Source: Pseudomonas sp. PA15(2017) (GTDB taxonomy: Bacteria > Pseudomonadota > Gammaproteobacteria > Pseudomonadales > Pseudomonadaceae). From it: a stretch of DNA of 64,000 nucleotides. Numbering within the stretch: the first letter of the stretch is position 1; every line of letters starts with the position of its first letter. Below the pieces are notes generated by a model, which had not been told where the DNA came from, did no database searches, and saw nothing but the letters and a program-made list of their open reading frames with translations. Shown here in pieces: positions 4,987 to 56,590 of the stretch. Made by a program: the position numbers and the translations under genes. Location of the stretch: NCBI RefSeq assembly GCF_001945395.1, contig NZ_MSXV01000011.1, positions 62,001 through 126,000 of the forward strand, given 5' to 3'.

Positions 4987-5037
4987 GGAGCCCCCGATTG
5001 AAAAAGGGCTCTAGGATAGCGCAGTTCTGCCCTGTCA

Positions 5038-5556: not shown

Positions 5557-5559
5557 AAA

Positions 5560-7770: not shown

Positions 7771-7785
7771 GGTTCACCTCGCTCC

Positions 7786-8304
7786 TCAGGAGCGTTCCTT
7801 CAGAGTGAGGGTACGAGGACGCTCGAGCCAGCCGCCATCACCGTCCGGGACGATCTCGACCACATCGATCTTGGCGCTGTCGATGGCGACGATGCGGCCT
7901 TCATTGCGTCCCAGGTAATCCCCGACCTTGACGCGATGGACCCCGCCCGCACCGCTCACCAGAGCGAACGAACCATTGTCATTGGCCAGCGTGCCGACCA
8001 TCTCGAACAGCTCGATATTGAACCCTTCGAGGAACTGCTTCACGCGCGTCTCGTCAGGTTTGATTTCCTTGCTGCCTTTCGCCCGAGCGACCATATCGAT
8101 CTTCACTGGCGGCTGGAATGGGCTGCGCAAGGCGGCAGCACTGTAGGTGAAGCTTTCGTAGGGTTCAGGCTGCGGCAGGGGCTCGATCTGGCCCCTTGGC
8201 CGCGCCCGCACTTCATCCATATACGCTTGCAGGTCGCTGAAGTCGCCGCCGCCGCAACCGCTCAGGGTCAGCAGCAGCAGACCAGGTACGAGGACACGTT
8301 TCAT
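7786..8304 (-). CDS. pilP: Type IV pilus lipoprotein PilP
   Basis: Inner-membrane lipoprotein linking the PilN/PilO dimer to PilQ. The 172 residues begin with a lipoprotein signal, lipobox LSGC with Cys17. A flexible Pro-rich region follows, with RSPFQPP near the middle, and then a C-terminal beta-rich HR-type domain (VGTLANDNGSFALV...VKVGDYLG) that contacts the secretin N0 domain. It overlaps pilO by 4 nt and precedes pilQ by 15 nt, so translation is probably coupled. Confidence 0.95.
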   Translation of the reverse strand: MKRVLVPGLLLLTLSGCGGGDFSDLQAYMDEVRARPRGQIEPLPQPEPYESFTYSAAALRSPFQPPVKIDMVARAKGSKEIKPDETRVKQFLEGFNIELFEMVGTLANDNGSFALVSGAGGVHRVKVGDYLGRNEGRIVAIDSAKIDVVEIVPDGDGGWLERPRTLTLKERS

Positions 8305-8924
8305 TGGTGTGCCCCCTTGTCGTTGTACCGATAGGTCTTGGCCAGAACCTTCATGCGCAGCTTGGAGGTACTGCCCTGCTCGGCCGGCACCAACTCGAAA
8401 TCGTGCAACGTGACGATGCGCGGCTGGCTGGCGACGCCACTGACGAAGGTCGCCAGGTCATGATAGCCGCCGACCACCTGAATCTGGATAGGTAGCTCGA
8501 TATAGAAAGGCTGCGTGACTTCCGGTAGCAACTTGATCTCCTCGAACTCCAGGCCGCTGTCCAGGCCGATACGGGTGATATCTTCGAGCAGACCCGGCAC
8601 TTCGGTGTCACTGGGCAACTGCTTGAGCAGAGCGCCGAAGGACGTTTCAGCCTCCTTCATCTGCTCACGGTAAGCCTCGAGATTGGCGGCCTGGAACGCC
8701 TTGGTAGAGAACTGCTCCTTGAGCGTTTCCTCATCCATACGCTGCTGATCCAGCGTGGCCTGCAGATCCTTCAGGTGGAAGTTATAGCCCAGCACCAGAA
8801 CCAACACGACGGCCAGAATGCCGGCGATCACCTTGACCGCGGCAGGCCAGGAACCGATGTTGTTCAGATCGAGATCATTGATATCGACCTTGCGTAGGCT
8901 GGCCAGAGAATCATTCAGGCTCAT
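8301..8924 (-). CDS. pilO: Type IV pilus inner-membrane protein PilO
   Basis: Bitopic alignment-subcomplex protein that dimerises with PilN. The 207 residues have a short cytoplasmic N-terminus (LRKVDINDLDLNNIGSWP), one transmembrane helix at about 32-48, a periplasmic coiled coil (about 52-95) and a ferredoxin-like fold containing the PFYIELPIQIQVVGGYHDLATF segment split around residue 140. The start overlaps the pilN stop by 4 nt and the end overlaps pilP by 4 nt. Confidence 0.95.
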   Translation of the reverse strand: MSLNDSLASLRKVDINDLDLNNIGSWPAAVKVIAGILAVVLVLVLGYNFHLKDLQATLDQQRMDEETLKEQFSTKAFQAANLEAYREQMKEAETSFGALLKQLPSDTEVPGLLEDITRIGLDSGLEFEEIKLLPEVTQPFYIELPIQIQVVGGYHDLATFVSGVASQPRIVTLHDFELVPAEQGSTSKLRMKVLAKTYRYNDKGAHQ

Positions 8925-9492
8925 GGCTTGACCTCCGCTTCTTCCTTGACGGGCTTGGCTTGCTGCACGGTCAGCTGGAAGGTGTTGGCCTGATCCACTG
9001 CGCCAGCGGTGACGGCCTTGACCTCGGTCAGGTTTGGCGCAGTCAGCCAGTCGGAAGCATCCATATCACGCATCAGCTTGGAAACCCGGCTATTCGACTC
9101 GGCCGCGCCAACGATGGCGATGGTCTTGTCGGTCATTTTCACCCCGGTGAAGTACACACCGTCAGGCAGCGTTCTCACCAACTGGTCGAACACATGGCCA
9201 ATGATCGGGCGGTTGCCCTGTAGATCCTGAATGATCTTCATCCGCTCCAACAGTTGCTGGCGGCGCGTGCGCAGCTCACTGATTTCCGCGATGCGGGTAT
9301 CGAGCACAGCAATTTCCTTGCGCACGAAGTCGTTACGGGCCTGTTGATTCTCGATCTCACCGTTGAGGTACTGGTCGCCCAGGAAAATCAGTGCTGCAGC
9401 GGCGACCAGAAGGCCGCCCAGCGACACCAGAAAACGCTGCTTGCGCTCTTCGCGAAGCTGCTCGCGCCAGGGAAGGAGGTTAATCCGCGCCA

Positions 9493-9493
<1 letters not shown>
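8921..9493 (-). CDS. pilN: Type IV pilus inner-membrane protein PilN
   Basis: 190-residue bitopic partner of PilO. Its cytoplasmic tail carries the conserved PilM-docking motif INLLPWR at residues 4-10. A transmembrane helix follows at about 22-42, then a periplasmic coiled coil and a ferredoxin-like domain. The ATG overlaps the last base of the pilM stop codon (shared base 9493). It is the second gene of the pilMNOPQ operon. Confidence 0.95.
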
Positions 9494-10741
<1,248 letters not shown>

Positions 10742-13177
10742 ATGCGTTTGCTGAAGTTTTTCTGCTGGTCCGTCATCGCCGTTTTTTGTGCGCTGGTACT
10801 CGCCGTCAGTGGTGCCTTCCTCTACCTGAGCCCGACCCTACCCTCTGTCGATGCCTTGCGCAGTATAGAGCTGCAGATCCCGCTTCGCGTGTACAGCAGC
10901 GACGGAAAACTCATCGCCGAATTCGGGGAGATGCGCCGCTCGCCCATCGCCTTCGCCGACATACCGCCCGACTTCACCAGCGCGCTGCTGGCTGCCGAAG
11001 ACGATAACTTCGCAAATCATTATGGCGTTGATCTTACGAGCCTGATGCGCGCTGCCACGCAATTATTGAAAACAGGTCAAATTCAGTCCGGCGGCAGCAC
11101 GATCACCATGCAGGTGGCGAAGAATTTCTTCCTCACCAGCGAGCGCAGCTTCTCGCGCAAGATCACCGAGATTCTGCTCGCCCTGCAGATCGAGCGCGAG
11201 CTGAGCAAGAACGAAATCCTCGAGCTGTACGTCAACAAAATCTATCTGGGTCACCGCGCCTACGGCATCGAAGCCGCTGCCCAAGTCTATTACGGCAAAT
11301 CCATCCGAGACTTGAGCCTCTCGCAGCTTGCGACGATAGCCGGTCTTCCCAAGGCACCTTCGGCCTTCAACCCGCTGACCAACCCGACCCGGGCCAAGGA
11401 GCGCCGCGACTGGATCCTCGGTCGCATGCATCGCCTGGGCCGTATCGACCAGGCGCGCTACGAAACCGCCCTGGCCGAGCCGGTGGACGCCAGCTATCAC
11501 GTGCCCACGCCCGAAGTACCGGCGCCCTACGTGGCCGAGATGGCCCGCGCCGAAATGGTCGGTCGCTACGGCAGCGATGCCTACACCCAGGGTTTCAACG
11601 TAACCACCACGGTACCCAGCGACCTGCAGGTGATGGCCAACAAGGCCCTGCGCGACGGCCTGATCGAATACGACCAGCGCCACGGTTATCGCGGCCCGGA
11701 AAGCCGCCTGCCCGGCATGACCCGGGAAACCTGGCAGACCGAACTGAGCAAGCAAGGCCTGCGCGGCGGTCTGGAGCCGGCGATCGTCACCCAGGTCGAA
11801 AAGAGCGGCATCCTGGTACTGACCCGGCGCGGCGACGAGGAAGCGGTGTCATGGGACAGCATGAAATGGGCCCGCCCGTTCCTCAATACCAACAGCCTGG
11901 GGCCGCGTCCGCAGCAGCCGGCGGACGTGGCGCAGATCGGTGACCTGATCCGCGTGCAGCGCCAGGACGATGGCAACTTGCGCTTCGCGCAACTGCCCAG
12001 CGCGCAGAGTGCTTTAGTCTCGCTCGACCCGCAGAACGGTGCTATTCGCGCCCTGGTCGGTGGTTTCTCCTTCGAACAAAGCAACTACAACCGCGCCGTG
12101 CAAGCCAAGCGCCAGCCCGGCTCAAGCTTCAAGCCGTTCATCTACAGTGCCGCGCTCGATAATGGCTACACCGCTTCCAGCCTGGTCAACGACGCGCCGA
12201 TCGTGTTCGTCGATGACTACATGGATCAGGTCTGGCGACCGAAGAACGACACCAATACCTTCCTCGGCCCCATCCGCCTGCGCGAGGCGCTCTACAAGTC
12301 GCGCAACCTGGTGTCGATCCGCCTGCTGCAGGCCATGGGCATCGAGAAAACGCTGAACTACATCGAGCGCTTCGGCTTCAACCGCCAGGACCTGCCGCGC
12401 AACCTGTCCCTGGCGCTCGGCACGGCCAACCTGACGCCGATGGAAATCGCCATCGGCTGGACGGCCTTCGCCAATGGCGGCCACAAGGTTCAGCCCTACC
12501 TGATCCAGCGCATCGACAACCGCCATGGCGACCCGCTGTTCATCGCCAACCCGCCGACCGTGCCCAATGCAGCCAAGGCCGACGTGCCGCCGCCGGTCAA
12601 CGAGGAAGGCGTGATGAGCACTGCCGAAGCAGCGCCCGAGCAGTTGCCGGAGGCGCCGGAACCGGCCGCCGCCGAGCGCATCCTCGATGAGCGTACTGCC
12701 TACATCATGACCAGCATGCTGCAGGACGTGATCAAGCGCGGTACCGGGCGCCGGGCCATGGCCCTGGGCCGCACCGATCTGGCTGGCAAGACCGGTACCA
12801 CCAACGATTCCAAGGACAGCTGGTTCTCCGGCTACAACGCCGACTACGTGACCACCGTGTGGGCCGGCTTCGATCAGCCGGAAAGCCTGGGCCGCCATGA
12901 ATACGGTGGCACCGTTGCCCTGCCGATCTGGATGAGCTACATGGGCGCCGCGCTCAAGGACAAGCCCGCCCACGCACCCGCCGAACCGGATGGCATTCTC
13001 ACCCTGCGCGTCGACCCGCACAGTGGTCGTGCCGCAGCCCCAGGAACGCCGGACGCGTACTTCGAGCTGTTCAAGAGCGAAGACTCACCGCCGCCGATGA
13101 ACGAGTTCGACCCAGGCATGGGCGCACCGAACAGCCCACTGCCGGCAGACGAGAGCGCGCCGATCGACCTGTTCTAG
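10742..13177 (+). CDS. ponA: Penicillin-binding protein 1A
   Basis: Bifunctional peptidoglycan glycosyltransferase/transpeptidase (mrcA-type), 811 residues, anchored by an N-terminal transmembrane helix (about 5-27). The GT51 domain includes EDDNFANHYGVD with the catalytic Glu, followed by GGSTITMQVAKNFF and the ELYVNKIYLG segment. An OB-like insertion follows. The transpeptidase domain has SSFK with nucleophile Ser461, KSRN and KTGTTND. The start is the ATG at 10742; an adjacent TTG is less likely. It diverges from pilM, as in other pseudomonads, and ends before a heptad repeat and a bidirectional terminator. Confidence 0.97.
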   Translation: MRLLKFFCWSVIAVFCALVLAVSGAFLYLSPTLPSVDALRSIELQIPLRVYSSDGKLIAEFGEMRRSPIAFADIPPDFTSALLAAEDDNFANHYGVDLTSLMRAATQLLKTGQIQSGGSTITMQVAKNFFLTSERSFSRKITEILLALQIERELSKNEILELYVNKIYLGHRAYGIEAAAQVYYGKSIRDLSLSQLATIAGLPKAPSAFNPLTNPTRAKERRDWILGRMHRLGRIDQARYETALAEPVDASYHVPTPEVPAPYVAEMARAEMVGRYGSDAYTQGFNVTTTVPSDLQVMANKALRDGLIEYDQRHGYRGPESRLPGMTRETWQTELSKQGLRGGLEPAIVTQVEKSGILVLTRRGDEEAVSWDSMKWARPFLNTNSLGPRPQQPADVAQIGDLIRVQRQDDGNLRFAQLPSAQSALVSLDPQNGAIRALVGGFSFEQSNYNRAVQAKRQPGSSFKPFIYSAALDNGYTASSLVNDAPIVFVDDYMDQVWRPKNDTNTFLGPIRLREALYKSRNLVSIRLLQAMGIEKTLNYIERFGFNRQDLPRNLSLALGTANLTPMEIAIGWTAFANGGHKVQPYLIQRIDNRHGDPLFIANPPTVPNAAKADVPPPVNEEGVMSTAEAAPEQLPEAPEPAAAERILDERTAYIMTSMLQDVIKRGTGRRAMALGRTDLAGKTGTTNDSKDSWFSGYNADYVTTVWAGFDQPESLGRHEYGGTVALPIWMSYMGAALKDKPAHAPAEPDGILTLRVDPHSGRAAAPGTPDAYFELFKSEDSPPPMNEFDPGMGAPNSPLPADESAPIDLF

Positions 13178-44543: not shown

Positions 44544-47393
44544 ATGACGCGCCACCTTCCCCTGCGACCCGATATCGATGACGGCATCGACCGCAAGGTG
44601 CTGACGCAGCTGCGCGCGCGCTTCATGCGCGTCAACCACGGTCGCCAGCAGCGCGCCATGCAAGCCCTGTCGACCCGCCAGCAACGGGTGCTGACGCTGT
44701 TGCCGCTGCTGTTTCACGTCAATCATCCGTTGCTGCCCGGCTACGTCTCGGCGCAGACGCCGGCCGGGCTGGCCGGCTTCGAACCCTCGGCCGAGCTGCT
44801 GGCCGAAGCCCAGCGCCTGACCCGCTCCTTCGCCTACAAGCCGTCGCGCGCTCCGGCGCCCACGCCCATCCATGGCCTGTTCCTGATGGGCAGCCTGGGT
44901 ACCGTGGCCCAGGCCGAGCAGAGCGACATGGACCTGTGGGTCTGCCACGCCGACGATCTCGACGCGGGCGCCCGCGCAGCACTGCAACGCAAATGCGACC
45001 TGCTGAAGCGCTGGGCGGCCAGCCAGGGCGCCGAAGCGCACTTCTTCCTGATAGACCCCGAGCGCTTTCGCAGCGGCGCCCGTGAAGCACGACTGACCTC
45101 GGACGACTGCGGCACCACCCAGCATTTCCTGCTCCTCGACGAGTTCTACCGCACGGCGATCTGGCTGGGCGGGCGCATGCCGCTGTGGTGGCTGGTTCCG
45201 CCCAGCGACGAGCATCGCTACACCCATGTGACCGAAGCCTTGCTGAGCAAGCGCTTCATCCGCGCCGAGGACGTGCTCGACCTCGGCCACCTGGCCCAGG
45301 TACCGGCCGGTGAGTTTCTCGGCGCCGGCATGTGGCAGCTGTTCAAGGGCATCGAGTCGCCCTACAAATCGGCACTCAAGTTACTGCTCACCGAGGTGTA
45401 CGCCAGTGAGCATCCCCAGGTGCGCTGCCTGTCGCTGCGCTTCAAGCAGTCGGTCTACGACGGTCTGCTCGACCTCGACAAGCTGGACCCCTACGTGCTG
45501 ATCTACCGCCGCCTGGAGGAATACCTGCAGGCGCGCGGCGAAACCGAGCGCCTGGAACTGGTCAGGCGCTGCCTGTACCTGAAGGTGAACAAGAAGATCA
45601 GCAAGCCGCCGCGCCGCCGCGAAAAGAGCTGGCAGCGCCTGCTGCTCGAGCGGCTGACCGGCGAGTGGGGCTGGGGCGAACGCCAGCTGATCCTGCTCGA
45701 CAGCCGCAGCCAATGGAAAGTCCGCCAGGTCGTCGCCGAACGCCAGGCGCTGGTCAACGAACTCAACTACAGCTATCGCTTTCTGTCGATGTTCGCGCGC
45801 AATCGCCCCAAGGGCGTGGCCGCCGATAGCCGCGACCTGGCCGTGCTGGGTCGGCGCCTGTACGCCGCCTTCGAACGCCGGGCCGGCAAGGTGGAATTCA
45901 TCAACCCGGGCATCGCCCCGGAACTGGGCGAAGACACCCTGACCCTGGTGCATAACCCTACGCCCAAGGGCGAGCGCTGGGCGCTCTACAACGGCAGCCT
46001 GGGCGCCCAGGAATGGCACGATTTCGCACCATTGCGCCAGGCCCGCAGCCTGATCGAACTGCTTGCCTGGAGCCATCGCAACGGTGTGATCGACAGCGGT
46101 ACGCACCTGTCGCTGTATCCGGGCGACAGCGACCTTACCGAGTTCGAACTCAGCCAGCTGCTCGGCTGCCTGGCCCAGGCCCTGCCGATGCCGCTGACCA
46201 GTGCGAGCGAGGTGGCCCTGGCGCGACCGCGCCGGCCTGTCGAGGAACTGCTGCTGGTCAACGTCGGCCTCGACCCGCTCAAGCAGCACAGCCAGATGAA
46301 CGTGCACATGACCAGCGAGCGCACCGATCCGCTGGGCTATTCGGGCGTGCGTGACAACCTGGTGCTGACCCTAGACCGGATCACCCTAAACAGCTGGAAC
46401 GAGTTGCTGGTCGAGCGTTACGAAGGCGCCACCGCCCTGCTCGACTGTCTGAGCGACGTGCTCAACGCACGCCCCGCTCGCGGTGAGCGCGCGGGCCCGC
46501 GTGTGTTCTGCTATTGCCGCAACCGCGCCGCGACCATCGTCGAGCGCGTCGAAGGCCTGCTGGACGAGCTGATCGACTGCCTCGACAGCGGCGAGCGGTC
46601 GCGCTACCTGCTGCAGATCGCCCGTCGCTACCACCTGCTCGACCTGTCACCCGGCAACGTCCGGCACAGCGTGCTGGAGGATATGCCCGCGCTGTTCGAG
46701 CACCTCGCCCAGGATCGCGCCGAGTACAGCGCACTGCGCCTGGACCACAATACGCTGGAAGGCGACGACCTGGCGTTGATCCTTGAAGCCGGACGCCCGG
46801 CGTGCATCCAGGTGTTCTACCGCCTGCATGAAACGGAAGGCCTGGCGCAGATCAGCGTGCTCGACGAGTGCGGCGCGCTATGGCGCAGCCAGGCGCCGTT
46901 CCATAACGAAACCAGCCTGCTCACGCCGCTGCACCGCTTCCTGCAATCGCTGCTGTACCGGCGCGGCACCGCCCAGGCCCTCGAAGGCCCGCAGCAACCG
47001 CTGGAGATCCTCTACCACCAACTGCTGCCGGCCGCCCCACTGCGTGCGCAGCGTCTGGAGCCCAGGCCGGCGCCGTTGAGCGAAGCCAGCCTGCCGTTCT
47101 ATGACGTTCAGGCCATCGTCGAGCCGGGCAACGGCCAGCGTGCCTACATCAGCCTGTTCTGCAACCATCGGGAGTTTTCCGAGCTCGAACACGGTGAGCA
47201 GCTGTTCGCCAACGTGGCCCGACACATCCTCGCCCAGCGCAGCGAGCAGCAACCGTATCCGTGTTACATCACTGACCTCGATCTTTCCGCACTACTCGGC
47301 GACCGGCAGCCGTCGGTGGTTCATTACCTGCGCTACAAGGCCAGCCTCGAGGACGCGCTGAACGGCACACTGAGCGCGCCCAGACCTTATTGA
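44544..47393 (+). CDS. cyaA: Class I adenylate cyclase
   Basis: Makes cAMP from ATP in the cytoplasm. The 949 residues fit the enterobacterial-type class I family. The N-terminal catalytic domain has GSLGT followed by the metal-binding Asp128/Asp130 in QSDMDLWVC, as in nucleotidyltransferases; the long C-terminal regulatory region has FVARHIL-type conserved segments. The start ATG 44544 lacks a strong RBS. The stop TGA lies within a Fur-box-like sequence upstream of the ECF sigma gene. Confidence 0.95.
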   Translation: MTRHLPLRPDIDDGIDRKVLTQLRARFMRVNHGRQQRAMQALSTRQQRVLTLLPLLFHVNHPLLPGYVSAQTPAGLAGFEPSAELLAEAQRLTRSFAYKPSRAPAPTPIHGLFLMGSLGTVAQAEQSDMDLWVCHADDLDAGARAALQRKCDLLKRWAASQGAEAHFFLIDPERFRSGAREARLTSDDCGTTQHFLLLDEFYRTAIWLGGRMPLWWLVPPSDEHRYTHVTEALLSKRFIRAEDVLDLGHLAQVPAGEFLGAGMWQLFKGIESPYKSALKLLLTEVYASEHPQVRCLSLRFKQSVYDGLLDLDKLDPYVLIYRRLEEYLQARGETERLELVRRCLYLKVNKKISKPPRRREKSWQRLLLERLTGEWGWGERQLILLDSRSQWKVRQVVAERQALVNELNYSYRFLSMFARNRPKGVAADSRDLAVLGRRLYAAFERRAGKVEFINPGIAPELGEDTLTLVHNPTPKGERWALYNGSLGAQEWHDFAPLRQARSLIELLAWSHRNGVIDSGTHLSLYPGDSDLTEFELSQLLGCLAQALPMPLTSASEVALARPRRPVEELLLVNVGLDPLKQHSQMNVHMTSERTDPLGYSGVRDNLVLTLDRITLNSWNELLVERYEGATALLDCLSDVLNARPARGERAGPRVFCYCRNRAATIVERVEGLLDELIDCLDSGERSRYLLQIARRYHLLDLSPGNVRHSVLEDMPALFEHLAQDRAEYSALRLDHNTLEGDDLALILEAGRPACIQVFYRLHETEGLAQISVLDECGALWRSQAPFHNETSLLTPLHRFLQSLLYRRGTAQALEGPQQPLEILYHQLLPAAPLRAQRLEPRPAPLSEASLPFYDVQAIVEPGNGQRAYISLFCNHREFSELEHGEQLFANVARHILAQRSEQQPYPCYITDLDLSALLGDRQPSVVHYLRYKASLEDALNGTLSAPRPY

Positions 47394-47410
47394 TAACAAT
47401 TCTCATAATG
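47392..47410. promoter_or_regulatory. Fur-box-like site upstream of the ECF sigma gene
   Basis: GATAACAATTCTCATAATG matches the 19-bp Fur consensus at 13 of 19 positions by hand count. It starts at the cyaA stop codon and lies 52 nt before the sigma-factor start, where Fur normally represses fecI-type genes. Confidence 0.6.
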
Positions 47411-47461
47411 AGCTAACATGCTCGCTCGCCGTAGCACGCCCGCTGTGCACGGCTTGCGGCA

Positions 47462-47986
47462 GTGCCAATCGTGCCTTCGACACCCAACCCCAAACTCGAC
47501 CTGTACCTCACCCATCGGCTCGCCTTGGTGGACTACGCCGCCTCGCTGCTCAGTTGCCGCGCCCAGGCTGAAGATGTCGTGCAGGAAGCCTGGCTGCGCT
47601 TCAGCAGCCGCGACAGCGTCGACGCCGTGATCGAGCAGCCAGTCGGCTATCTCTACCGGATCGTCCGTAATCTGGCTTTCGACCTGAGCCGCCGCGACGC
47701 CACCGAGCGGCGCCAACCCGACGGCGATGACCTACTCGAGACGCTCTCCGACGACAAGCCGGGGCCTGAGCAACAGGCCAGCACCAGCGCCGAACTGCGT
47801 ATCGTCAACGCCGCCCTGGCAGAGCTGGCACCTAGGGTGCAGCGTGCCTTCGAGATGCATCGGCTGGAAGGCCACACCCTGCAGCACATCGCCGCCGCCC
47901 TGAACATCTCCGTAGGCCTCGCCCACCAGTTGGTGCACCAGGCGTTGTGTCATTGCGCCGACCGGCTGGAGCAGGCCAATGGCTGA
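47462..47986 (+). CDS. FecI-type ECF sigma factor
   Basis: 174 residues with only sigma regions 2 and 4. Region 2 contains AEDVVQEAWLRF (about 36-47) and the DNA-contacting YLYRIVRNLAFDLSRR (about 64-79). Region 4 includes VQRAFEMHRLEGHTLQHIAAAL with its helix-turn-helix. The start is GTG at 47462 (or 47471); neither has a strong RBS. It should be released by the adjacent FecR protein on receptor occupancy and transcribe the receptor-protease-ABC operon. Confidence 0.9.
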   Translation: MPIVPSTPNPKLDLYLTHRLALVDYAASLLSCRAQAEDVVQEAWLRFSSRDSVDAVIEQPVGYLYRIVRNLAFDLSRRDATERRQPDGDDLLETLSDDKPGPEQQASTSAELRIVNAALAELAPRVQRAFEMHRLEGHTLQHIAAALNISVGLAHQLVHQALCHCADRLEQANG

Positions 47987-48076
47987 TCTGAAAATTCGCG
48001 CGGCTGAGCCGTCCTTTGCTCGTAGGGGCACGTGTGTGCGAACCTTGCCCACCTTTCAGGACGATCCGAAACGACC

Positions 48077-49057
48077 ATGACCGGCACCCTCACCCACACT
48101 GCACTGGACTGGCTGCTACGCATCCAGCAGAGCCCCGAGGATGCCGCGCTGCGTACCGAGCTGGCCGCCTGGCTGGCCATCGACAGCCGCCATGTGGAGG
48201 CCTACCGCAAGGCCCAGCGGGTCTGGCAGTTGACCGGCATGGCCCAGGCAGCGACAAGCCCGCCGGCCATCGAACACCCCCGCGCAACGACCGCCGACCT
48301 CGCGGCAGCAGCGGCTCCTGCTGCGCGCCCGCACCGCCCACGCCGACGTCGCTGGCCAGCCCTGTTGGCGGGTTCGCTGGCCGCCTGCCTGCTGGTGGTG
48401 ATGACCCCGGACGCCTATCTGCGCTACCAGAGCGACTACCGCACGGGCGCTGGTCAGCAGCGCAGCATCGAACTGGACGATGGCAGCCGCGTACAGCTCG
48501 ACAGCCAGTCGGCGATCGCCGTGGCATTCGACGGCAAGCGCCGCGAGGTACGCCTGCTCAGCGGCCAGGCGTTCTTCGAGGTAACCCCGGACAAAAGCCG
48601 TCCCTTCACGGTCGACGCGGACGACCTGCAGATCACCGTCACCGGCACCGCGTTCAACGTGGCCATGCGCCCCAGCCAATTGGCAATCGCCGTGCAGCAT
48701 GGTTCGGTGCGAGTGGCCGAGGGCAGCGAGACTTTGGCCGATGCGCTGCACCCAGGCGACCGGCTGCAATGGCGCGGCAGCGGCCAGGTACTGCGCGACA
48801 CGCTCCCAGTCAGCCAGATAGCCGCCTGGCAGCAAGGCCGACTGGTGGTGCGCGACGCTCGCATCGCCGAGGTGCTCGACGAATTGCGCCCCTACCTGCC
48901 TGGCAAGCTGGCGCTGCGTGACGCCGAGCTGGGCGACAAGCGCGTCACCGGTGTCTACGATCTGCGCAATCCGGATGCCGCCCTGCGCGCCGTCATCCAG
49001 CCCTATCAGGGGCGAGTCAGCACCTGGACGGCCTGGCTGCGAATCGTCGACCGCTAG
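48077..49057 (+). CDS. FecR-type anti-sigma / sigma regulator
   Basis: 326 residues. The cytoplasmic N-terminal domain has the conserved ALDWLLRIQQSP and WLAIDSRHVEAYRKAQRVW segments. One transmembrane helix covers about 105-122 (WPALLAGSLAACLLVVM), followed by a periplasmic FecR domain (DDGSRVQLDSQSAIAVAF ... GQAFFEVTPD) and a C-terminal STN-like region that contacts the receptor's signalling domain. The start ATG 48077 is 90 nt past the sigma stop. A terminator follows its stop. Confidence 0.92.
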   Translation: MTGTLTHTALDWLLRIQQSPEDAALRTELAAWLAIDSRHVEAYRKAQRVWQLTGMAQAATSPPAIEHPRATTADLAAAAAPAARPHRPRRRRWPALLAGSLAACLLVVMTPDAYLRYQSDYRTGAGQQRSIELDDGSRVQLDSQSAIAVAFDGKRREVRLLSGQAFFEVTPDKSRPFTVDADDLQITVTGTAFNVAMRPSQLAIAVQHGSVRVAEGSETLADALHPGDRLQWRGSGQVLRDTLPVSQIAAWQQGRLVVRDARIAEVLDELRPYLPGKLALRDAELGDKRVTGVYDLRNPDAALRAVIQPYQGRVSTWTAWLRIVDR

Positions 49058-49063
49058 GGTTTG

Positions 49064-49086
49064 AGCCGCTTGCGAGCGGCTTTTTC
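49064..49086 (+). terminator. Intrinsic terminator after fecR-type gene
   Basis: AGCCGCT-TGCG-AGCGGCT stem followed by TTTTC, 6 nt past the stop. It separates the sigma/anti-sigma unit from the receptor operon, which therefore needs its own promoter. Confidence 0.85.
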
Positions 49087-49212
49087 TAATCTCGAAAAAA
49101 TAATTCGAATTTCTCTGAAAATTTTCAGCGCGGGCACGTCATTGCCTCGAACACGAATCGATACGGATTCGTATTAGCTTTCAGCTGGGCCTCTGGCCCG
49201 TTCGGGGAAGGT
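49087..49212 (+). promoter_or_regulatory. Receptor-operon leader with two palindromes
   Basis: The spacer holds a perfect 14-bp palindrome CTGAAAATTTTCAG (49115-49128) and a dyad ACGAATC-GATACG-GATTCGT (49153-49172). GAAAAT (49117-49122) followed by CGTC (49137-49140) recalls FecI/PvdS-type promoters, though the 14-nt spacer is short. RBS GGGGAAGG precedes the receptor ATG. Function inferred only. Confidence 0.4.
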
Positions 49213-52098
49213 ATGAACAAGCAGTCGCATCCCGCCATACATGCCAGGACACTGGGTAGAGCCATCAGCCTGGGCCTGCTCGGCCTGTGCAGCGCGCTGC
49301 CAATCAGCGTCAGCACAGCCATGGCGCAAGACGCCGCCAGCGCGCTGTTGCAGCAACAGCATACCTTCAACGTGCCCGCCCAGCCCCTGGCCGACGCCTT
49401 GATTGCCTTCGCACAGCAGAGCGGCTTGCAGGTCAGCGCCGAGCAACAGCTGGTCGGCCACCTGCGCAGCAAGGCGATCAAAGGGCAGATGAGTAGCGAA
49501 CAGGCGCTTTCACGCCTGCTGGATGGCAGCAACGTGGGCTGGCAATACAGCCAGCAGGTGGTGATCTTTCATCAGTTGGCGAGCCAGAACGACGCTATCG
49601 AACTGAGCAACACGATAGTTCTGGGCAGGCCGGAGAACACCTTCCAGGGCGAGGCGGTGATTGACCGGCAAGCCATCGAAAACTTCGCGGGCGCCAATGG
49701 CGACCTGACCAGCATGCTCAAAATGCACCCTAGTGTACGTTTCGATACTAGCCAGCAGAGTTCCAACACTCCAGGTGAACTCAACCCGGCAGATATAAGC
49801 ATCAACGGCGCGAAATTCTACCAAAATAATTTCATGATCGATGGCATCAGTATAAACAATGACCTCGATCCGGCGGCGAGTAGCGGCTCCCGGAACAACG
49901 TGCATAATCAATACGGACTGCCCAGCAATGCCTTTGGTATCGCTATCGACGCAGACCTATTGGAAGAGGTACGTGTCTACGACAGTAACGTGCCTGCCGA
50001 ATACGGCAAGTTCAACGGCGGGGTAGTTGACGCCATTACCAGGCGCCCCAGCGAAGACTTCCACGGCAAAGTCTCGGCCAGCATGACCCGTTCGGAGTGG
50101 ACCAAATACCATATCAACGGTGAGGTCATTAGCGACGAGGAATTCAAATACTCCAGCACCTACGCCAACCAACCGGAATTCAAGAAACTCACCACCCGGG
50201 TAATGCTGGAAGGTCACCTGACGGAAAACTTCGGGCTTATCGGCAACTTCGTACGCAAGACCTCTGAGATACCGCTGTATACCTTCGAGGGGGGCTTCGC
50301 CAGTGCCAGCGAGCCCGTCAAACGAAACCAGACGCGAGAAATAGAGAACGCCATGATCAAGGGTTTCTGGACGCCCGATGATCGCCTGGATCTGAGTTTC
50401 ACGCTGATAAATGCCCCTGCAGAGAACGAATATTTCAGACAAAACACGCGAAATTCGGGCTTCCGCGTCGATCAGGGTGGGCGTACGGCACAACTCAAAA
50501 CTGTCTGGCGGGGTGACCAGGCGACCTACACCAACAAACTTTCCTACAGGATGGTACAGAGCTCCCGTGACGCGGACTCAGCCTTTTATGTGCCTTGGCG
50601 CTGGTCCGATGAAAAGAACTGGGGAAACCCGTTTCGTAACGGTGTGCGCGATGCCAGGGCGGTAAGTGCCGATGGGGGCATGGGCGATCTGGAACAGCAG
50701 CAAACTGGCTTCGAGTACGGGTTCAAGGCGGATCTGCACAAAATCGATCTATTTGGTACAGAACACAAACTGACATTCGGCGCGGATATCAGCCGACAAA
50801 AGGCATCCTACGAGGTTCTCGAGGATACCTATGCAGCAGGATTACTGGCGACCAGAGCGGCCAATGCCAGTAGCTCCTGCGTGACGGCAAGCGGTCGGCA
50901 GGATATCACCCTGTGCTCTATCGCCAACAATGCCGCTGGTGAGCGCACACGCCAGTTCTTTCGCCAGATCAACTATGTGCAGGCTGGCAAGATCGAAGCC
51001 ACGCAGACCGATTACAGCCTGTATGCGCAGGACGACATCCAGATAGGCCAGCTCAACCTGCGCCCTGGCTTGCGATTCGATGCCGACAACTATATGGACA
51101 AGAAAACCGTAGCGCCGCGTTTTGCAGCCAGCTACGACCTCTTTGGTGACAGCAGCAGCGTACTCAGCGGCGGTGCGAACCGTTACTACGGCCGCAACCT
51201 GTTCAAATATCGCCTTGCCGATGGCCGGGAGTCGCTGCGCTGGCGCATGAACAGGGCCGTGGCGACCGGAAATACCATCAGCGATTTCGGCGAAGCCATC
51301 AATTGGGGAGTCGATGAATCGGCGTTCCGCAAGATCGACATGCCCTACGACGACGAACTGATGCTGGGCTTCTCGCAACTGCTGGCTGGCGCACGCTTCG
51401 ATCTCAAGTACGTACACCGCGATGGCAAGGATCAAGTGGTTCGCAGTCGCGCCAGCCGTCTTGGCCTGATACCGGGCAATGGAGCCGATACGATCGCCGA
51501 TTACTACACCTACACCAATGCCGGAAAAAGCAACAACCAGACCATAACGCTGACGATTACGCCACAGGAGTTTCTGCGTGTGGCAGGCACCCTAACCAAC
51601 GCCCAACTGGGCTTCGACTGGAGCCGTACGAAAAGCCCTCAGTCCACCTATGAAGCGGTGCTCACGGTGGACCAGCTCGCCGACAACGATGTGTACTACG
51701 ACGGCAAGCTCATACCGTACAGCGAACTGCCAGCAGACAACTTCAACCGTCCCTGGACCGCACGTCTGAACACCGTTACCAACATCCCGGTGCTCAACCT
51801 TACGTGGAGCAACTTCTTCCGTTATCGGGGCGCTTACGAGCAGATCTACTCGACCAACAACATAACCATCGACGGTGACGTCTACGCCGCTTACACAAAT
51901 AAACGAGTAGCTGGCGCGCCCACCTGGGATACACGCGTCAAATGGGAAATACCTACCTATCGGGAGCAGTCGGCTTACGTCGCCTTAGACATCACCAACG
52001 TGGCAGACAAGGTCAACAGTATTGTCAGCGATACTAACGGCACTGTCAGTTACGAAGTCGGCCGCCAATACTGGCTCGAAGTCGGCTACCAATTCTAA
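49213..52098 (+). CDS. TonB-dependent receptor with STN signalling domain (Fus/YddB-like context)
   Basis: 961-residue outer-membrane receptor. Sec signal peptide (cleavage near STAMAQ), then an STN domain (about 46-125, FNVPAQPLADALIAFAQQSG) that signals to the FecR protein. A TonB-box-like NTIVL lies near 135. The plug domain contains ISINGAKFYQNNFMIDGISI, and a 22-strand-type barrel ends ...GRQYWLEVGYQF with terminal Phe. The adjacent M16 protease and YddA-type ABC gene make a protein or peptide ligand likely, perhaps an iron-sulphur protein; this is inference. Base use is unusual: 21 of 60 G+C at 49801-49860, against GC-rich neighbours. Confidence 0.9.
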   Translation: MNKQSHPAIHARTLGRAISLGLLGLCSALPISVSTAMAQDAASALLQQQHTFNVPAQPLADALIAFAQQSGLQVSAEQQLVGHLRSKAIKGQMSSEQALSRLLDGSNVGWQYSQQVVIFHQLASQNDAIELSNTIVLGRPENTFQGEAVIDRQAIENFAGANGDLTSMLKMHPSVRFDTSQQSSNTPGELNPADISINGAKFYQNNFMIDGISINNDLDPAASSGSRNNVHNQYGLPSNAFGIAIDADLLEEVRVYDSNVPAEYGKFNGGVVDAITRRPSEDFHGKVSASMTRSEWTKYHINGEVISDEEFKYSSTYANQPEFKKLTTRVMLEGHLTENFGLIGNFVRKTSEIPLYTFEGGFASASEPVKRNQTREIENAMIKGFWTPDDRLDLSFTLINAPAENEYFRQNTRNSGFRVDQGGRTAQLKTVWRGDQATYTNKLSYRMVQSSRDADSAFYVPWRWSDEKNWGNPFRNGVRDARAVSADGGMGDLEQQQTGFEYGFKADLHKIDLFGTEHKLTFGADISRQKASYEVLEDTYAAGLLATRAANASSSCVTASGRQDITLCSIANNAAGERTRQFFRQINYVQAGKIEATQTDYSLYAQDDIQIGQLNLRPGLRFDADNYMDKKTVAPRFAASYDLFGDSSSVLSGGANRYYGRNLFKYRLADGRESLRWRMNRAVATGNTISDFGEAINWGVDESAFRKIDMPYDDELMLGFSQLLAGARFDLKYVHRDGKDQVVRSRASRLGLIPGNGADTIADYYTYTNAGKSNNQTITLTITPQEFLRVAGTLTNAQLGFDWSRTKSPQSTYEAVLTVDQLADNDVYYDGKLIPYSELPADNFNRPWTARLNTVTNIPVLNLTWSNFFRYRGAYEQIYSTNNITIDGDVYAAYTNKRVAGAPTWDTRVKWEIPTYREQSAYVALDITNVADKVNSIVSDTNGTVSYEVGRQYWLEVGYQF

Positions 52099-52112
52099 GA
52101 AGGCTCGCGCCC

Positions 52113-54902
52113 ATGCATCCCGTGAAAACCCTTTTCACGGCACTGGCAGCGCTGCTGCTCGGTGCCTGTACGTCCCTGCCTGCTGGCGATACGCCGCTGC
52201 AGTGGCACCCCATGGTCATTCGTGGCGAGCTGCCCAACGGCCTGCGCTACAACCTGATCCCCGTCGACGAGCAAAGGGGCCGGCTGGATATGCGCCTGAC
52301 GGTGCACGCCGGCTCGGTGGACGAGGCCGACGATCAGGTTGGTGTCGCCCATTTGCTCGAGCACCTGGTCTTCTACAGCCATGGCGGTGAACCGCTCGAT
52401 GTACGCCAGCGCCTGCAGAAGGCCGGCTGGCAGCAGGGGCGCCACTTCAATGCGATGACCAGCTACGACCGTACCCAATACCTGCTCAGCCCGCCCGACG
52501 GCGTGCGCAGCAGCGAGCTGGCGCTGCAAACCTTGGCGAACATGGCCTTCGCTGCGGATTTCACCGCAGAGGACCTGCAACGCGAGCGTCCCATCGTCAT
52601 CGAGGAATGGCGCGGCGGCCTGGGTGTGGCGCAGCGCATGAACGCCAAGCGCACCGCCGCCCAGCGCACCGGCTCGCGCTACCCCGCGCACCGCACCATC
52701 GGCAACCGCAAGGCCATCGAGCAGGCGCAGCTGGAGGCGCTGCAGGCCTTTCAGCAGCGCTGGTACCTGCCGAACAACATGGTGCTGAACGTCGTTGGCG
52801 ACTTCGAGCCGCAGCAGCTGATCGCGCAGATCGAGCAGGCGCTCGCCAAGCCCCAACGCGGCGACGTGCCGAGTCGCGAGCACCTGGAGCTGCCACTGGA
52901 CGACAGGCTGAAGGTGTTTCGCGCACAGGACAGCCAGAGCGGCAGCAACCAGGTCGCCCTGCTGTTTCGCTTCAGCCAGCTCGACAGCCGCGAGCAAACC
53001 CGTGCTGGCAGTCGTGATCGACTGATCGACCGTCTCGCGCTCAGCGTACTGTCACGTCAGCTACGTCGCCAGCCGCTGGATCAAAACCAGACCAGCAGCC
53101 TTACCGCCGTGAAGACCCAGATCGGCCGGGGTACTGGCGTGTTGGCCATCGCCGCAGCGGTCAAGGGCCAGCACCATGAGCAATCGCTGCAGACCCTGCT
53201 GCGCGAGCTGCAGCGGATCGATCGCCACCCGTTGCACGCCGCCGACGTACAGGCCGTGAAGGACGATATCCGCCGCATCGCCGAGCGCATGCTGAGCGAT
53301 CCGGCGCCGCGGGATTTCGATGGCTGGGTACGCCAGCTCAATGACGCGACCATCGCCGAGCGCGTGCTGCAGGAACCCGAAGCCATCGCTCGTATTACCC
53401 TGGCCAACCTGGAAGTCATCGACGCGGACGATCTGCAGCGGCGCATCCATGGTTGGCTGGCCAGCCCGGATCGCGTGCTGCAGCTCAGTGCGCCAGGCGG
53501 AACGGCGCTGACGATGCCGACTGCCGCCAGCGTGCGCCAGCAGTGGTTGACCTTGTCTACCAGTGAACTGGCCGCGCCGCTGCCACCTGCCGCCCAGGCA
53601 GATGTCGTGATCCCCACGCTGACCAGCGCCCTGCCCCCGGGCCTGATCCTCGAACGGCGCCGCTTCGCCGCCGAGCGGGTCGAGCACTGGCAACTGAGCA
53701 ACGGTGACCGCCTGGTATGGCTGCGCCGCCCCGGCGCCGACGGCAAGGTGCAGCTGCGGGTCGACTCCAGTGCCGGCTTTCGTTACCAGGGCGGGCTGCC
53801 CTGGCGCGCCCAGATCGCCAGCCAGTTGGCCCTGCAGACCGCGCCGAGCGGCTGGAGCGATGAACAGCTGAGCGCCTGGAAGAAACGTGAAGGCGTGCAG
53901 CTGTCCTTCGACCAGCAGGCCAGCCGCCTGCAAGCCCAGGGCAGTACCGAGCCACAGCGACTGGCCAGCCTGCTGGCCCTCTACCAGGCACGACAGACGC
54001 GCACCACCCTGGACGAGCAGGCCTATCGCGACAGCGTCGAACAACTGCGCGATCAGTTGCAGCGCCAGCGCGACAATGTGCGCAGCGAGCAGGACGCCAC
54101 CTGGCGACGCCTCAAGCAGGGCCAGGACGACTGGCAGGCACCCACCGCCGAGGCGCTGAGCGCGTTGCGCCGCAGCCAGCTGGAGGCCGACTGGCAGCGC
54201 CAGGCCGCCGCCCCGGTGACCTACTACCTGATGGCCGACCTGCCCGCCGCCGAGCTGCAGGCGCTGGTCAGCCGCTACCTGGCCGCCATCCCGCGGGGCG
54301 ATGCCTTGAACGCCACGCCCCTGGCGCGCCAACCCGGTCAGCGCCAGGCCTCGCTGGCCATCGCCCTGGAGCCACGCGCCAGCCTGTATGCCAGCAGTTT
54401 CAAGCCCCACGCCTGGAACCCCGCCGATGCCGCACGCATTGCCGCCCTGCGTGAAATCGCCAACGCCGAACTCAAGCAACGCCTGCGCGGCGATGCCACC
54501 GGCATCTACCGCCTGCGCTTCGACAGCGAACTGAGCCCCGAGCAGCAGCGCATCGACAGCGAGCTGCATTTCAGCAGCGCCCCACAACGGGCCGACGAGC
54601 TCTGGCAGCTGGCTCGGGAAACCCTGGCGGCGTTGCCGGAGGCGGTCACCGAACAGCGCGTGATGGTCCTGCGCCAGGAACTGACGCGCAAGGAAACCCA
54701 GCGTCGCGAAGACCCGGGCACCCAACTGCACCGGCTGGTGCTCAGCGAGCGGGCCTGGGGCGACCCACGCTACCTCAGCGAGCAAGCGCAATTGCCTGCT
54801 GCGCTGGAAACAGCGGCGATGCAACGCCTGGCCCGGCAGATCTTCCCGCCGGCCAATGAAGTACGCATGCAGGTATTGCCCGCCGAGGGCGCCGGCTCGT
54901 GA
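52113..54902 (+). CDS. M16-family zinc protease lipoprotein (FusC/PqqL-like)
   Basis: 929 residues. A lipobox LGAC gives lipidated Cys19; the +2 Thr predicts outer-membrane retention. The inverted zinc motif HLLEH is at 80-84, the third ligand is probably Glu165 in ERPIVIEEW, and the length fits the two-half (M16B repeat) FusC/PqqL type. Second-half conserved segments include NPADAARIAALREIANAELK near 770-790. Predicted role: cleaving an imported protein in the periplasm. It lies 14 nt after the receptor gene and overlaps the ABC gene by 4 nt, so one transcript. Confidence 0.92.
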   Translation: MHPVKTLFTALAALLLGACTSLPAGDTPLQWHPMVIRGELPNGLRYNLIPVDEQRGRLDMRLTVHAGSVDEADDQVGVAHLLEHLVFYSHGGEPLDVRQRLQKAGWQQGRHFNAMTSYDRTQYLLSPPDGVRSSELALQTLANMAFAADFTAEDLQRERPIVIEEWRGGLGVAQRMNAKRTAAQRTGSRYPAHRTIGNRKAIEQAQLEALQAFQQRWYLPNNMVLNVVGDFEPQQLIAQIEQALAKPQRGDVPSREHLELPLDDRLKVFRAQDSQSGSNQVALLFRFSQLDSREQTRAGSRDRLIDRLALSVLSRQLRRQPLDQNQTSSLTAVKTQIGRGTGVLAIAAAVKGQHHEQSLQTLLRELQRIDRHPLHAADVQAVKDDIRRIAERMLSDPAPRDFDGWVRQLNDATIAERVLQEPEAIARITLANLEVIDADDLQRRIHGWLASPDRVLQLSAPGGTALTMPTAASVRQQWLTLSTSELAAPLPPAAQADVVIPTLTSALPPGLILERRRFAAERVEHWQLSNGDRLVWLRRPGADGKVQLRVDSSAGFRYQGGLPWRAQIASQLALQTAPSGWSDEQLSAWKKREGVQLSFDQQASRLQAQGSTEPQRLASLLALYQARQTRTTLDEQAYRDSVEQLRDQLQRQRDNVRSEQDATWRRLKQGQDDWQAPTAEALSALRRSQLEADWQRQAAAPVTYYLMADLPAAELQALVSRYLAAIPRGDALNATPLARQPGQRQASLAIALEPRASLYASSFKPHAWNPADAARIAALREIANAELKQRLRGDATGIYRLRFDSELSPEQQRIDSELHFSSAPQRADELWQLARETLAALPEAVTEQRVMVLRQELTRKETQRREDPGTQLHRLVLSERAWGDPRYLSEQAQLPAALETAAMQRLARQIFPPANEVRMQVLPAEGAGS

Positions 54903-56590
54903 ACACCTTGCGCCTGTTCTTCAAGCTGGCCAGGCCGTTCTGGGGCAGCCGCGCCGGCTGGCCGGGCTGGGCGTTATTGGCGCTGGCATTGGCCATGGGC
55001 GCCGGCCTGGTGCAGGTCAACGTGTACATCAACGAATGGAGCAAGACCTTCTACGACACCCTGGCGACCTTCGACGGCAAGGCCCTGATCGGCCTCATGG
55101 GCCAGTACGCGATCGCCATCGGCGTACTGATCGGCGCCATCGTCGCCAAGGACTGGTTCAACAAGGCGCTGATGCTGCGCTGGCGTCAGCACCTCAACGA
55201 TCACCTGCTGGAACGCTGGCTGGGCGAGCGCCGCTACTATCGCCTGGGCCTTGGCGGCGAACCGGATCACCCGGATCAACGCATCGCCGAGGACGCCTAC
55301 CTGCTGACCGAGAAGACCGTGGGCATTGTCGTCTCGCTGTTTATCAACAGCCTGCAGATCGGTGCCTTTGTCAGCATCCTCTGGCAATTGTCCGGCACCC
55401 AGACCTTCACCATCGCCGGCCATGAGCTGACCATGGACGGTTATCTGGTTTGGGCCGCGCTGCTATACACCGCCGTCGGTACCCTGCTCACCCACTGGCT
55501 GGGACATCCGCTGCACGGCCTGAACTACGAACGCCAGCGCAGCGAGGCGGCCTTTCGTACCGACCTGATGCGCAAGCGCGAACATGCCGAGCAAATTGCT
55601 TTGTATGCCGGCGAAAACGCCGAGCGGAAAAGTCTGGGGCTGCGCTTTGCGGCCATCGCCGACAACTGGCGCGGGCTGATGCGCCGGGAACTGAAGCTGG
55701 GGATCTTCACCGCGGGTTACAGCCGTGTCAGCAATATCGTGCCGGTCTTCATCGCCCTGCCGCTGTTTCTCGCCAAAACCATCACCCTCGGCGGGCTGAT
55801 GCAGATTCGCAGCGCTTTCACCGCCGTCCAGGGCTCGCTGAGCTGGTTCATCTTCTCCTACCGCGACCTGGCTGAATGGAGTGCCACGGTGCAGCGCCTC
55901 GGCCAGTTCCAGCAGGCCATGGAGCACCTGCAACCGATCGACCTCCAGCACGGCGAAACCCTCAGCACCTGCGGGCTTGACGTGCTGCGGCCCAACGGCG
56001 AGCCGCTGTTGTGCGGCCTGGCCCTGCAGGCGCGTCCCGGCGAATGGCTGCGCCTGGCCGGTGCCAGCGGCCTGGGCAAGACCACCCTGCTGCGTACCCT
56101 GATGGGCCTTTGGCCGCACCACCGTGGCAGCTGGCAACTGCCCGGCGGGCGCAGCCTGCTGCTGCCGCAAAAGCCCTACCTGGCCAGCGGCCGGCTGGAT
56201 GAAGCATTGGCCTACCCCGCGGCGCTGGTGCCGAACACCCTGGAATTGATTGGCGCCCTGCAGGATGTCGGCCTCGGCCATCTGACTAGCGAACTGGAAC
56301 GGGAAGCCGAGTGGGGGCGTGAACTTTCCGGCGGTGAGCAGCAGCGCCTGGCCGTGGCCCGCGCGCTGCTCTACCGGCCCGATACCCTGTACCTCGACGA
56401 GGCCACCAACCAGCTCGACGAGCAGGCCGCCTGCGGGCTCCTCACGCGACTACGCGAACGCCTGCCAGGCTGCACGCTGATCGGCGTCAGCCATCAGCCG
56501 GCGGTGCAACGCCTGTTCGAGCGCAGTATCGATTTGCAGAAGTGTGGGGCCGCATGCAAGCCATTGGTACGGGACGCGACCACGGCCTGA
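54899..56590 (+). CDS. SbmA/BacA/YddA-type ABC transporter (fused TMD-NBD)
   Basis: 563 residues beginning with GTG overlapping the protease stop (GTGA). The N-terminal membrane domain (about 20-320) has the SbmA/BacA-like pattern (YINEWSKTFYDTLATFD at about 43-59, WFNKALMLRWRQHLNDHLLERWL near 86-108). The nucleotide-binding domain has Walker A GASGLGKTT (388-396), Q-loop Gln424, signature LSGGE (476-480), Walker B TLYLDE (496-501) and switch His532. SbmA-like proteins import peptides; this NBD-bearing branch includes YddA and FusD. It probably takes up fragments released by the protease. Confidence 0.9.
   Translation: MNTLRLFFKLARPFWGSRAGWPGWALLALALAMGAGLVQVNVYINEWSKTFYDTLATFDGKALIGLMGQYAIAIGVLIGAIVAKDWFNKALMLRWRQHLNDHLLERWLGERRYYRLGLGGEPDHPDQRIAEDAYLLTEKTVGIVVSLFINSLQIGAFVSILWQLSGTQTFTIAGHELTMDGYLVWAALLYTAVGTLLTHWLGHPLHGLNYERQRSEAAFRTDLMRKREHAEQIALYAGENAERKSLGLRFAAIADNWRGLMRRELKLGIFTAGYSRVSNIVPVFIALPLFLAKTITLGGLMQIRSAFTAVQGSLSWFIFSYRDLAEWSATVQRLGQFQQAMEHLQPIDLQHGETLSTCGLDVLRPNGEPLLCGLALQARPGEWLRLAGASGLGKTTLLRTLMGLWPHHRGSWQLPGGRSLLLPQKPYLASGRLDEALAYPAALVPNTLELIGALQDVGLGHLTSELEREAEWGRELSGGEQQRLAVARALLYRPDTLYLDEATNQLDEQAACGLLTRLRERLPGCTLIGVSHQPAVQRLFERSIDLQKCGAACKPLVRDATTA

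Follow-up and report, generated by a model that had tools for sequence, protein, structure and literature searches.

A 64,000-nucleotide stretch of the genome of Pseudomonas sp. PA15(2017) (contig NZ_MSXV01000011.1, positions 62,001 to 126,000; the window) carries five genes encoding a FecI-type extracytoplasmic function (ECF) sigma factor, a FecR-type sigma regulator, a TonB-dependent receptor of the FusA family, an M16 zinc protease lipoprotein and an ABC transporter (Table 1). An earlier note on this DNA had placed five co-directional genes at 47392–56590 and read them as a protein-import cassette of the Fus/YddAB-PqqL kind under FecI/FecR control. Five plus-strand open frames were found there, and the Pfam domains of all five proteins agree with the assignments made then. 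The family make-up stands, with the correction that position 47392 belongs to the end of the upstream gene and that the cassette begins at 47462. The start of the ABC transporter gene shares four bases with the end of the protease gene.

Table 1. Genes and predicted regulatory elements of the cassette (positions in the window).
Feature	Position	Strand	Remarks
Fur-box-like element upstream of fecI	47386..47404	+	13/19 consensus matches
FecI-type ECF sigma factor	47462..47986	+	174 aa; Pfam Sigma70_r2, r4_2
Predicted FecI-dependent promoter before fecR	47988..48013	+	CTGAAAA-N15-CGTC
FecR-type sigma regulator	48077..49057	+	Frame open from GTG 48032; DUF4880 and FecR domain (Pfam)
Terminator-like hairpin after fecR	49063..49082	+	
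Predicted FecI-dependent promoter before receptor gene	49115..49140	+	CTGAAAA-N15-CGTC
FusA-family TonB-dependent receptor with N-terminal STN	49213..52098	+	Pfam, sequence and structure matches
FusC-type M16 zinc protease	52113..54902	+	Lipobox LGAC, Cys19; HxxEH at residues 80–84
FusD/YddA-type ABC transporter	54899..56590	+	SbmA/BacA-like membrane part and nucleotide-binding domain

Relatives and distribution of the cassette proteins

In the receptor, Pfam recognized Plug and STN domains; a TonB-box-like stretch (about residues 133–137) precedes the plug (about 140–280) and the barrel (281–961). Among solved structures compared by sequence, FusA (4zgv) scored 331 bits and YddB (6ofr) 251 bits. 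The earlier note had proposed a structure prediction of this protein, and the predicted fold was closest to FusA. With an AlphaFold model of mean predicted local distance difference test (pLDDT) 76.6 and predicted template modelling score (pTM) 0.70, in which residues 1–40, 123–141, 192–202 and 219–228 had pLDDT under 50, Foldseek returned FusA 4zgv as the best match (E 4.5e-65, template modelling score 0.71 by query) and YddB as the second. VIA-align also ranked FusA first (Z 39.2, root-mean-square deviation 4.4, 770 residues aligned), FecA 1kmo second (Z 35.5 over 570) and YddB fourth (Z 32.6 over 731); this look-up barely covers residues before 131, where the absence of a family is uninformative. 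An ordinary siderophore receptor was ruled out, as the matches to FpvA and to the CntO/FoxA entry are confined to the N-terminal third or less.

The M16 protein (Pfam Peptidase_M16 and M16_C) matched FusC (6b03) with 668 bits and PqqL (6ofs) with 162 bits. It groups with FusC and not with processing peptidases; a grouping with unrelated processing peptidases had been named in the earlier note as damaging to its proposal. A PqqF-like or ordinary processing peptidase was ruled out by the same FusC score and by a score of 67 bits with the PqqF model, whose cut-off is 320. The lipobox cysteine Cys19 and residues H80, E83 and H84 are present in all 50 aligned M16 proteins, and the lipid anchor is therefore a fixed trait of this clade. 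Plain signal peptides were seen by eye in FusC of a Pectobacterium-like genome (L115), in a Pasteurellaceae-like homologue and in PqqL. In lipoprotein sorting, an Asp after the cysteine decides the membrane; since none follows here (CTS in the window), the sequence suggests a location at the outer membrane.

The ABC protein contains ABC_membrane_2, SbmA_BacA and ABC_tran domains (Pfam). Its best match among solved structures was 6tqe (242 bits), which we take to be Rv1819c, and blastp gave 49% identity to FusD of the Pectobacterium-like genome and 38% to YddA. Among the proteins compared, FusD was nearest and YddA next; a grouping with heavy-metal or peptide exporters would have told against the earlier proposal. 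By these scores and identities the trio is Fus/YddAB-PqqL-like in all three members, and nearer Fus. It shares with Pectobacterium Fus the receptor, M16 and ABC families and the gene order A-C-D, but differs from it in the absence of FusB, in the added STN domain and FecI/FecR pair, in the lipoprotein nature of the protease and in a receptor only 29% identical to FusA. The YddA-YddB-PqqL proteins of E. coli belong to the same three families, but identities to the window are lower (PqqL 23%, YddB 28%, YddA as above) and the gene order differs. In E. coli the YddB plug is not preceded by an STN domain, no FecIR was seen in the fetched 20 kb, and PqqL has no lipobox by eye.

The M16 gene was detected at E <= 1e-60 in 12 of 298 Pseudomonadaceae genomes, the source genome counted, and its distribution is sporadic. 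The order sigma-FecR-receptor-M16 was found in all 12, with the ABC gene next in 11; receptor, protease and transporter thus do occur together in other genomes, and a lack of such co-occurrence would have counted against the proposal of the earlier note. Stutzerimonas kirkiae (L065/L028) has the other four genes, but no ABC gene comes after that for the protease. In a scan of named genomes, the best 80 of 107 loci were taken, of which 50 (L029–L078) encode an M16 protein with an identity of 46% or more; 30 distant M16 loci (L079–L108, 21–31% identity) were left out of the analysis. Ten genomes are apparently the same in the family set of 12 and the 50 named loci, and the counts are not independent. 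Three loci are labelled as non-Pseudomonas, with unconfirmed labels: L037 (Pseudothauera), L041 (a Paucimonas metagenome-assembled genome, MAG) and L048 (Pantoea sp.). A class-wide sample of 369 genomes gave the source genome only (1/369). A phylum-wide sample gave 6/398, namely the source genome, one of the same genus and four others, of which two are Pectobacterium-Fus-like with a TonB-like gene, one is Pasteurellaceae-like and one is a partial match at a contig edge with a distant receptor. No FecI or FecR was seen by blastp in the stretches fetched from those four genomes.

The five-gene cassette of L076 (P. dryadis) is preceded by a second receptor fragment (2–2023), which shares 42% identity with the window receptor. 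The receptor frame is interrupted in L067 (P. flavescens, 5031–7923), and the receptor and protease frames are interrupted in L072 (P. putida GM4FR, 5100–10757), by true loss or sequencing error in either case. L067 and L072 were left out of the receptor counts, and L072 also of the protease counts.

The upstream neighbour (stop at 47393) is presumably cyaA, and the downstream one (from 56672, minus strand) we take to be rnk. Twelve relatives of the same genus were fetched through cyaA; in all 12 an rnk match came next, and the fetched stretch gave no FecI or M16 match; the distance between the two genes was about 110 bases or less in ten relatives and about 1 kb or less in the other two. Of 17 loci with cyaA, four from other families of the same taxonomic order were left out. 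Because these two genes are neighbours in relatives, with neither FecI nor M16 matches in the fetched stretches, the cassette is, judged from this comparison, an insertion of about 9.3 kb at a core locus.

Regulatory elements and the sensing arm

An ECF sigma factor and a FecR protein encoded together, by which cell-surface signalling systems are recognized, were found here; the sigma protein has Pfam sigma70 regions 2 and 4. FecR has one apparent membrane span, and a VTGTAF self-cleavage site occurs in 51/51 aligned FecR proteins. The STN domain of the window receptor (residues about 49–125) scored 27.6 bits in Pfam (E 2.5e-6), and at least 60 of the 77 STN columns are filled in 49/49 receptors; HasR and FpvA match the window receptor in its N-terminal part only. 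Self-cleavage of FecR at Gly-Thr is described in passages of a review of cell-surface signalling (PMC9249621), and the VTGTAF site together with STN would fit the relay as set out there. The source genome contains 19 FecR-domain matches, and therefore many parallel signalling systems.

The sequence CTGAAAA-N15-CGTC occurs six times in the 5.49-Mb genome (the reversed control pattern, twice), and two of the six copies lie in the cassette, one ahead of fecR and one ahead of the receptor gene. Of 45 regions preceding the receptor gene (the window and 44 loci), 43 contain GAAAA-N15-CGTC, compared with one match altogether for ten other spacings between 10 and 20; the two exceptions are near variants (GAAGA-N15-CGTC in L065, N16 in L073). 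Forty-seven of 49 element-bearing loci were collapsed to nine mutually diverged rows. The motif columns had been preselected and their 2 bits are uninformative, but the preceding CT, which lay outside the selection, is invariant in these rows, with an average of 0.8–0.9 bits in spacer and flanks. In the fecI–fecR gap, the N15 element was found in 33 of 45 regions, an N14 form in three and an N16 form in one. A sigma-specific promoter before the receptor gene, another mark of cell-surface signalling, is thus present as a sequence match.

The element upstream of fecI was scored against a Fur consensus. A score of at least 13/19 was reached in 34 of 44 related loci, and in 0.7% of shuffled upstream regions; the score was below 13 in L034, L036, L037 and seven other loci. 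The element overlaps a sigma70-like promoter match (47390–47419) from a scan that performed near chance (2 found, 1.5 expected). The hairpin scan was likewise at chance level (6 found in the region, 6.3 expected), and what singles out the hairpin in Table 1 is its place right after the fecR stop. The predicted layout matches one in which Fur controls the sigma gene and the sigma factor controls the operon.

FecI and FecR are encoded upstream in 44 of the 50 named loci; no adjacent pair was found in six (P. floridensis, P. viridiflava ICMP 2848, two P. cichorii, P. alliivorans and P. capsici). These six loci, and a weak Fur-like match (12/19) before the receptor gene, could be taken to mean that the STN-FecR-FecI arm is vestigial and the receptor simply Fur-regulated. 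All six nevertheless retain the receptor promoter element and the STN domain. An orthologous FecI is encoded elsewhere in each of the six genomes (64–68% identical to the query FecI, with no more than 45% for the next paralogue), with FecR alongside and the element, as GAAAA-N15-CGTC between fecI and fecR, about 30 bases past fecI in 6/6. Loss of signalling in these loci was ruled out by this FecI. The displaced pair is apparently on the contig of the receptor in five of the six, about 9–14 kb off as reckoned from coordinates, and on another contig in P. floridensis. The invariant VTGTAF site and the exchange of FecI, FecR and STN en bloc (see below) also speak against a vestigial arm, which we consider highly improbable. 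The coupling of FecI/FecR to the cassette, as claimed earlier, is thus borne out by the promoter elements, by the six displaced-regulator loci that keep the element, and by the joint exchange.

In L119–L121, the genes between the displaced FecI-FecR pair and the receptor operon include some that, by their sequences, are presumably tonB, exbB and exbD, as well as one for a protein of 644 aa and one for a further TonB-dependent receptor.

Exchange of modules between loci

The P. cuatrocienegasensis locus (L034) differs from the window mainly in its sensing arm: identities are 53% for FecI, 40% for FecR and 44% for STN, compared with 84% for the plug, 66% for the barrel, 74% for the protease and 83% for the ABC protein. 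A MAG (L036) gives identities within one point of these, and L033 and L035 have sensing arms closer to the window (FecI 84–86%, FecR 69–71%, STN 73–81%). Apart from each other, L034 and L036 are nearest to L037 in FecI (69%) and STN (58%) and, by a margin of 49 versus 48%, in the periplasmic part of FecR. Trees were built from 24 of 51 loci; L037 entered with only 16% of the plug and barrel columns, and L060, a near duplicate, was dropped. The M16 tree unites all ten loci of the group (L034, L036 and their protease relatives) with a Shimodaira–Hasegawa-like approximate likelihood ratio test value of 100. The grouping of L034 and L036 with these relatives was rejected in the approximately unbiased (AU) test by FecI plus FecR (p 2.6e-5) and by STN alone (p 0.0034; 77 columns). 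On this sequence evidence, FecI, FecR and STN have been exchanged jointly in P. cuatrocienegasensis.

The reverse pattern is seen with Pseudomonas sp. PA27 (L029). Its identity to the window is 94–99% for FecI, FecR and the beginning of STN and 96% for the ABC protein, compared with 56–80% protein identity in the receptor from residue 126 onwards. At 4-fold sites, identity is 32–45% in this receptor part, against 84–93% in the genes for FecI, FecR and the ABC protein; this part must therefore have been replaced in the window or in PA27, as selection alone would not account for the difference. Within the receptor, the breakpoint falls somewhere from about residue 90 to about residue 126. As judged from these alignments, PA27 has kept the sensing arm and departs from the window in plug and barrel. 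The 4-fold identity of the protease blocks is 65–100%, two of ten being under 70%. Relative to L029, identity in the protease gene falls locally at 53000–53750 (81–87% in DNA; 79–91% in protein at residues 301–500), and this is perhaps a second exchanged stretch.

Over 47 loci, STN identity correlated with that of the FecR periplasmic part (r 0.85), FecI (0.80), protease (0.79), barrel (0.72) and plug (0.69); partial correlations were 0.54 for FecR, 0.35 for barrel and 0.23 for plug, from pairs that are not independent. The barrel tree places L033 and L076 elsewhere than the FecI plus FecR tree does. In L037 (labelled Pseudothauera nasutitermitis), almost the whole barrel is lost in frame, so that STN and the start of the plug join the last strands (7002–7919).

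These exchanges prompt the suggestion, which we hold tentatively, of a conserved STN-FecR-FecI sensor, with the sigma factor also driving its own anti-sigma gene, onto which plug-barrel modules are swapped by recombination. Each strain would then induce import of its own prey, and cargo emerging from the receptor would be cut by the lipid-anchored protease. Barrel replacement may equally have served to evade bacteriocins or phages that exploit the receptor, with the ligand unchanged. This possibility, to which we give a similar, somewhat less than even chance, is compatible with an inducible importer and could account for the barrel deletion in L037 and the interrupted receptor frames in L067 and L072. 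Ferredoxin-domain bacteriocins do use FusA in Pectobacterium, but the ferredoxin module is reported, in the sections of PMC5821083 that deal with it, for Pectobacterium and related genera only.

Proposed mechanism, cargo and relation to known systems

We propose that the cassette is probably a substrate-inducible protein importer of the Fus type. The starting points, namely parts, order, conservation, promoter elements and the joint exchange of FecI, FecR and STN, are read from the sequence. From them we infer induction by ligand, the direction of transport, the identity of the ligand and all biochemical steps. Under iron shortage, Fur would release fecI. Outside the cell, a small protein that carries iron would bind to the FusA-like receptor. 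The STN domain of the receptor would relay the event to FecR, which, with the self-cleaving Gly-Thr site of its family, would let FecI go free. FecI would then transcribe the receptor-protease-transporter operon from CTGAAAA-N15-CGTC and, from the second copy of the element, fecR, a negative feedback like the one reported for hasS. Housekeeping TonB, the likely motor, would power entry of the cargo. The lipid-anchored M16 protease, probably at the outer membrane, would cleave it, and the FusD-like ABC protein would move the product to the cytoplasm.

Several observations weigh against this proposal. The STN score lies just below the curated Pfam cut-off of 28.4. In the fecI–fecR gap, the element is absent in 8 of 45 regions and mis-spaced in 4. 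The clade used in the AU tests was picked after the identities had been seen. L037 has retained FecI, FecR, protease and ABC genes with the barrel lost. The charge of the presumed outer loops, whose limits were guessed from model strands, singles out no ligand. Finally, the Pectobacterium operon encodes FusB, a dedicated TonB in which Arg241 makes contact with Asp53 of FusA (PMC13253070). In the operon studied here FusB is absent, and the three TonB_C matches of the genome all lie on contigs other than that of the cassette; RRxxYP, the motif of FusB, was not found in six frames around these three loci. At the FusB-contact position, Asp was found in only 9 of 49 receptors (mostly Asn, 27, and Ser, 10).

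As to the cargo, plant-type ferredoxin is a candidate only. FusA and FusC are the nearest characterized receptor and protease, and carriers of the cassette include P. viridiflava, P. cichorii, P. fuscovaginae and P. capsici, which are names of plant-associated species. Ferredoxin piracy with an added sensor, the ligand being a plant- or alga-type [2Fe-2S] ferredoxin, is a special case of the proposed importer. The low identity to FusA and the lack of FusB noted above count against it; the names of other carriers, P. abyssi and P. cuatrocienegasensis, do not clearly point to plants; and the barrels are very diverse and exchanged, hence a hint of more than one ligand. We regard this cargo as possible but rather doubtful. 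A peptide or iron-free protein, scavenged for nitrogen or peptides under an iron control that is merely inherited context, would suit the SbmA/BacA-type membrane part of the ABC protein, since SbmA/BacA-related transporters carry peptides and other hydrophilic molecules. FecI-type control and kinship to FusA and FusC point to iron, as does the Fur-box-like element before most fecI genes, and such a cargo seems unlikely. The substrates of most Fus-like importers are an open question according to the main text of Grinter 2019 (PMC6793856).

That study already reported FusA and FusC homologues in Pseudomonas; its main text does not mention FecI, FecR or a lipoprotein, although its Fig. 2 and S1 Table may list such genes. 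No FecIR-coupled Fus system is named among the matches listed in open-licence PMC literature, and the word ferredoxin has no occurrence in the cell-surface signalling review (PMC9249621). A 'ferredoxin receptor fusA' of P. plecoglossicida is described, in an excerpt of PMC8981516, as induced by iron chelation; the paper also refers to work on unrelated fusA genes, one of which may be the gene deleted there, and was not used as evidence. Fus-like Pseudomonas clusters are thus known, and their coupling to cell-surface signalling appears as the new element, as judged from main text.

With FecI-FecR-FecA and Pseudomonas siderophore signalling, the cassette shares the domain set and the Gly-Thr site, but its receptor is of the FusA family (protein-binding) and a promoter is predicted before fecR too. 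HasR takes haem from HasA and is not known to import the protein itself; to our knowledge, the Has system includes no M16 protease or FusD. Has (HasI-HasS-HasR) resembles the cassette in having an STN-bearing receptor for a protein ligand and, as predicted for the cassette, an anti-sigma gene under its own sigma factor, but the HasI target sequence quoted in PMC9249621 differs from the cassette element. According to the relevant passages of that review, iron-uptake sigma factors do not transcribe their own anti-sigma gene and HasI does; with its predicted promoter before fecR, the present system would therefore stand with Has.

In conclusion, the cluster resembles an importer and cutter of a whole iron-carrying protein, whose surface sensor probably switches it on upon binding of the prey. 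If this is true, cell-surface signalling would here respond to an inducer that the cell imports and digests. On the account given in those passages of PMC9249621, it would also be a second case, after Has, of an anti-sigma gene predicted to be driven by its own sigma factor. A substrate-sensing version of the Fus importer would also offer a direct route to the prey, as a reporter placed on the promoter at 49115–49140 should respond to the right protein.

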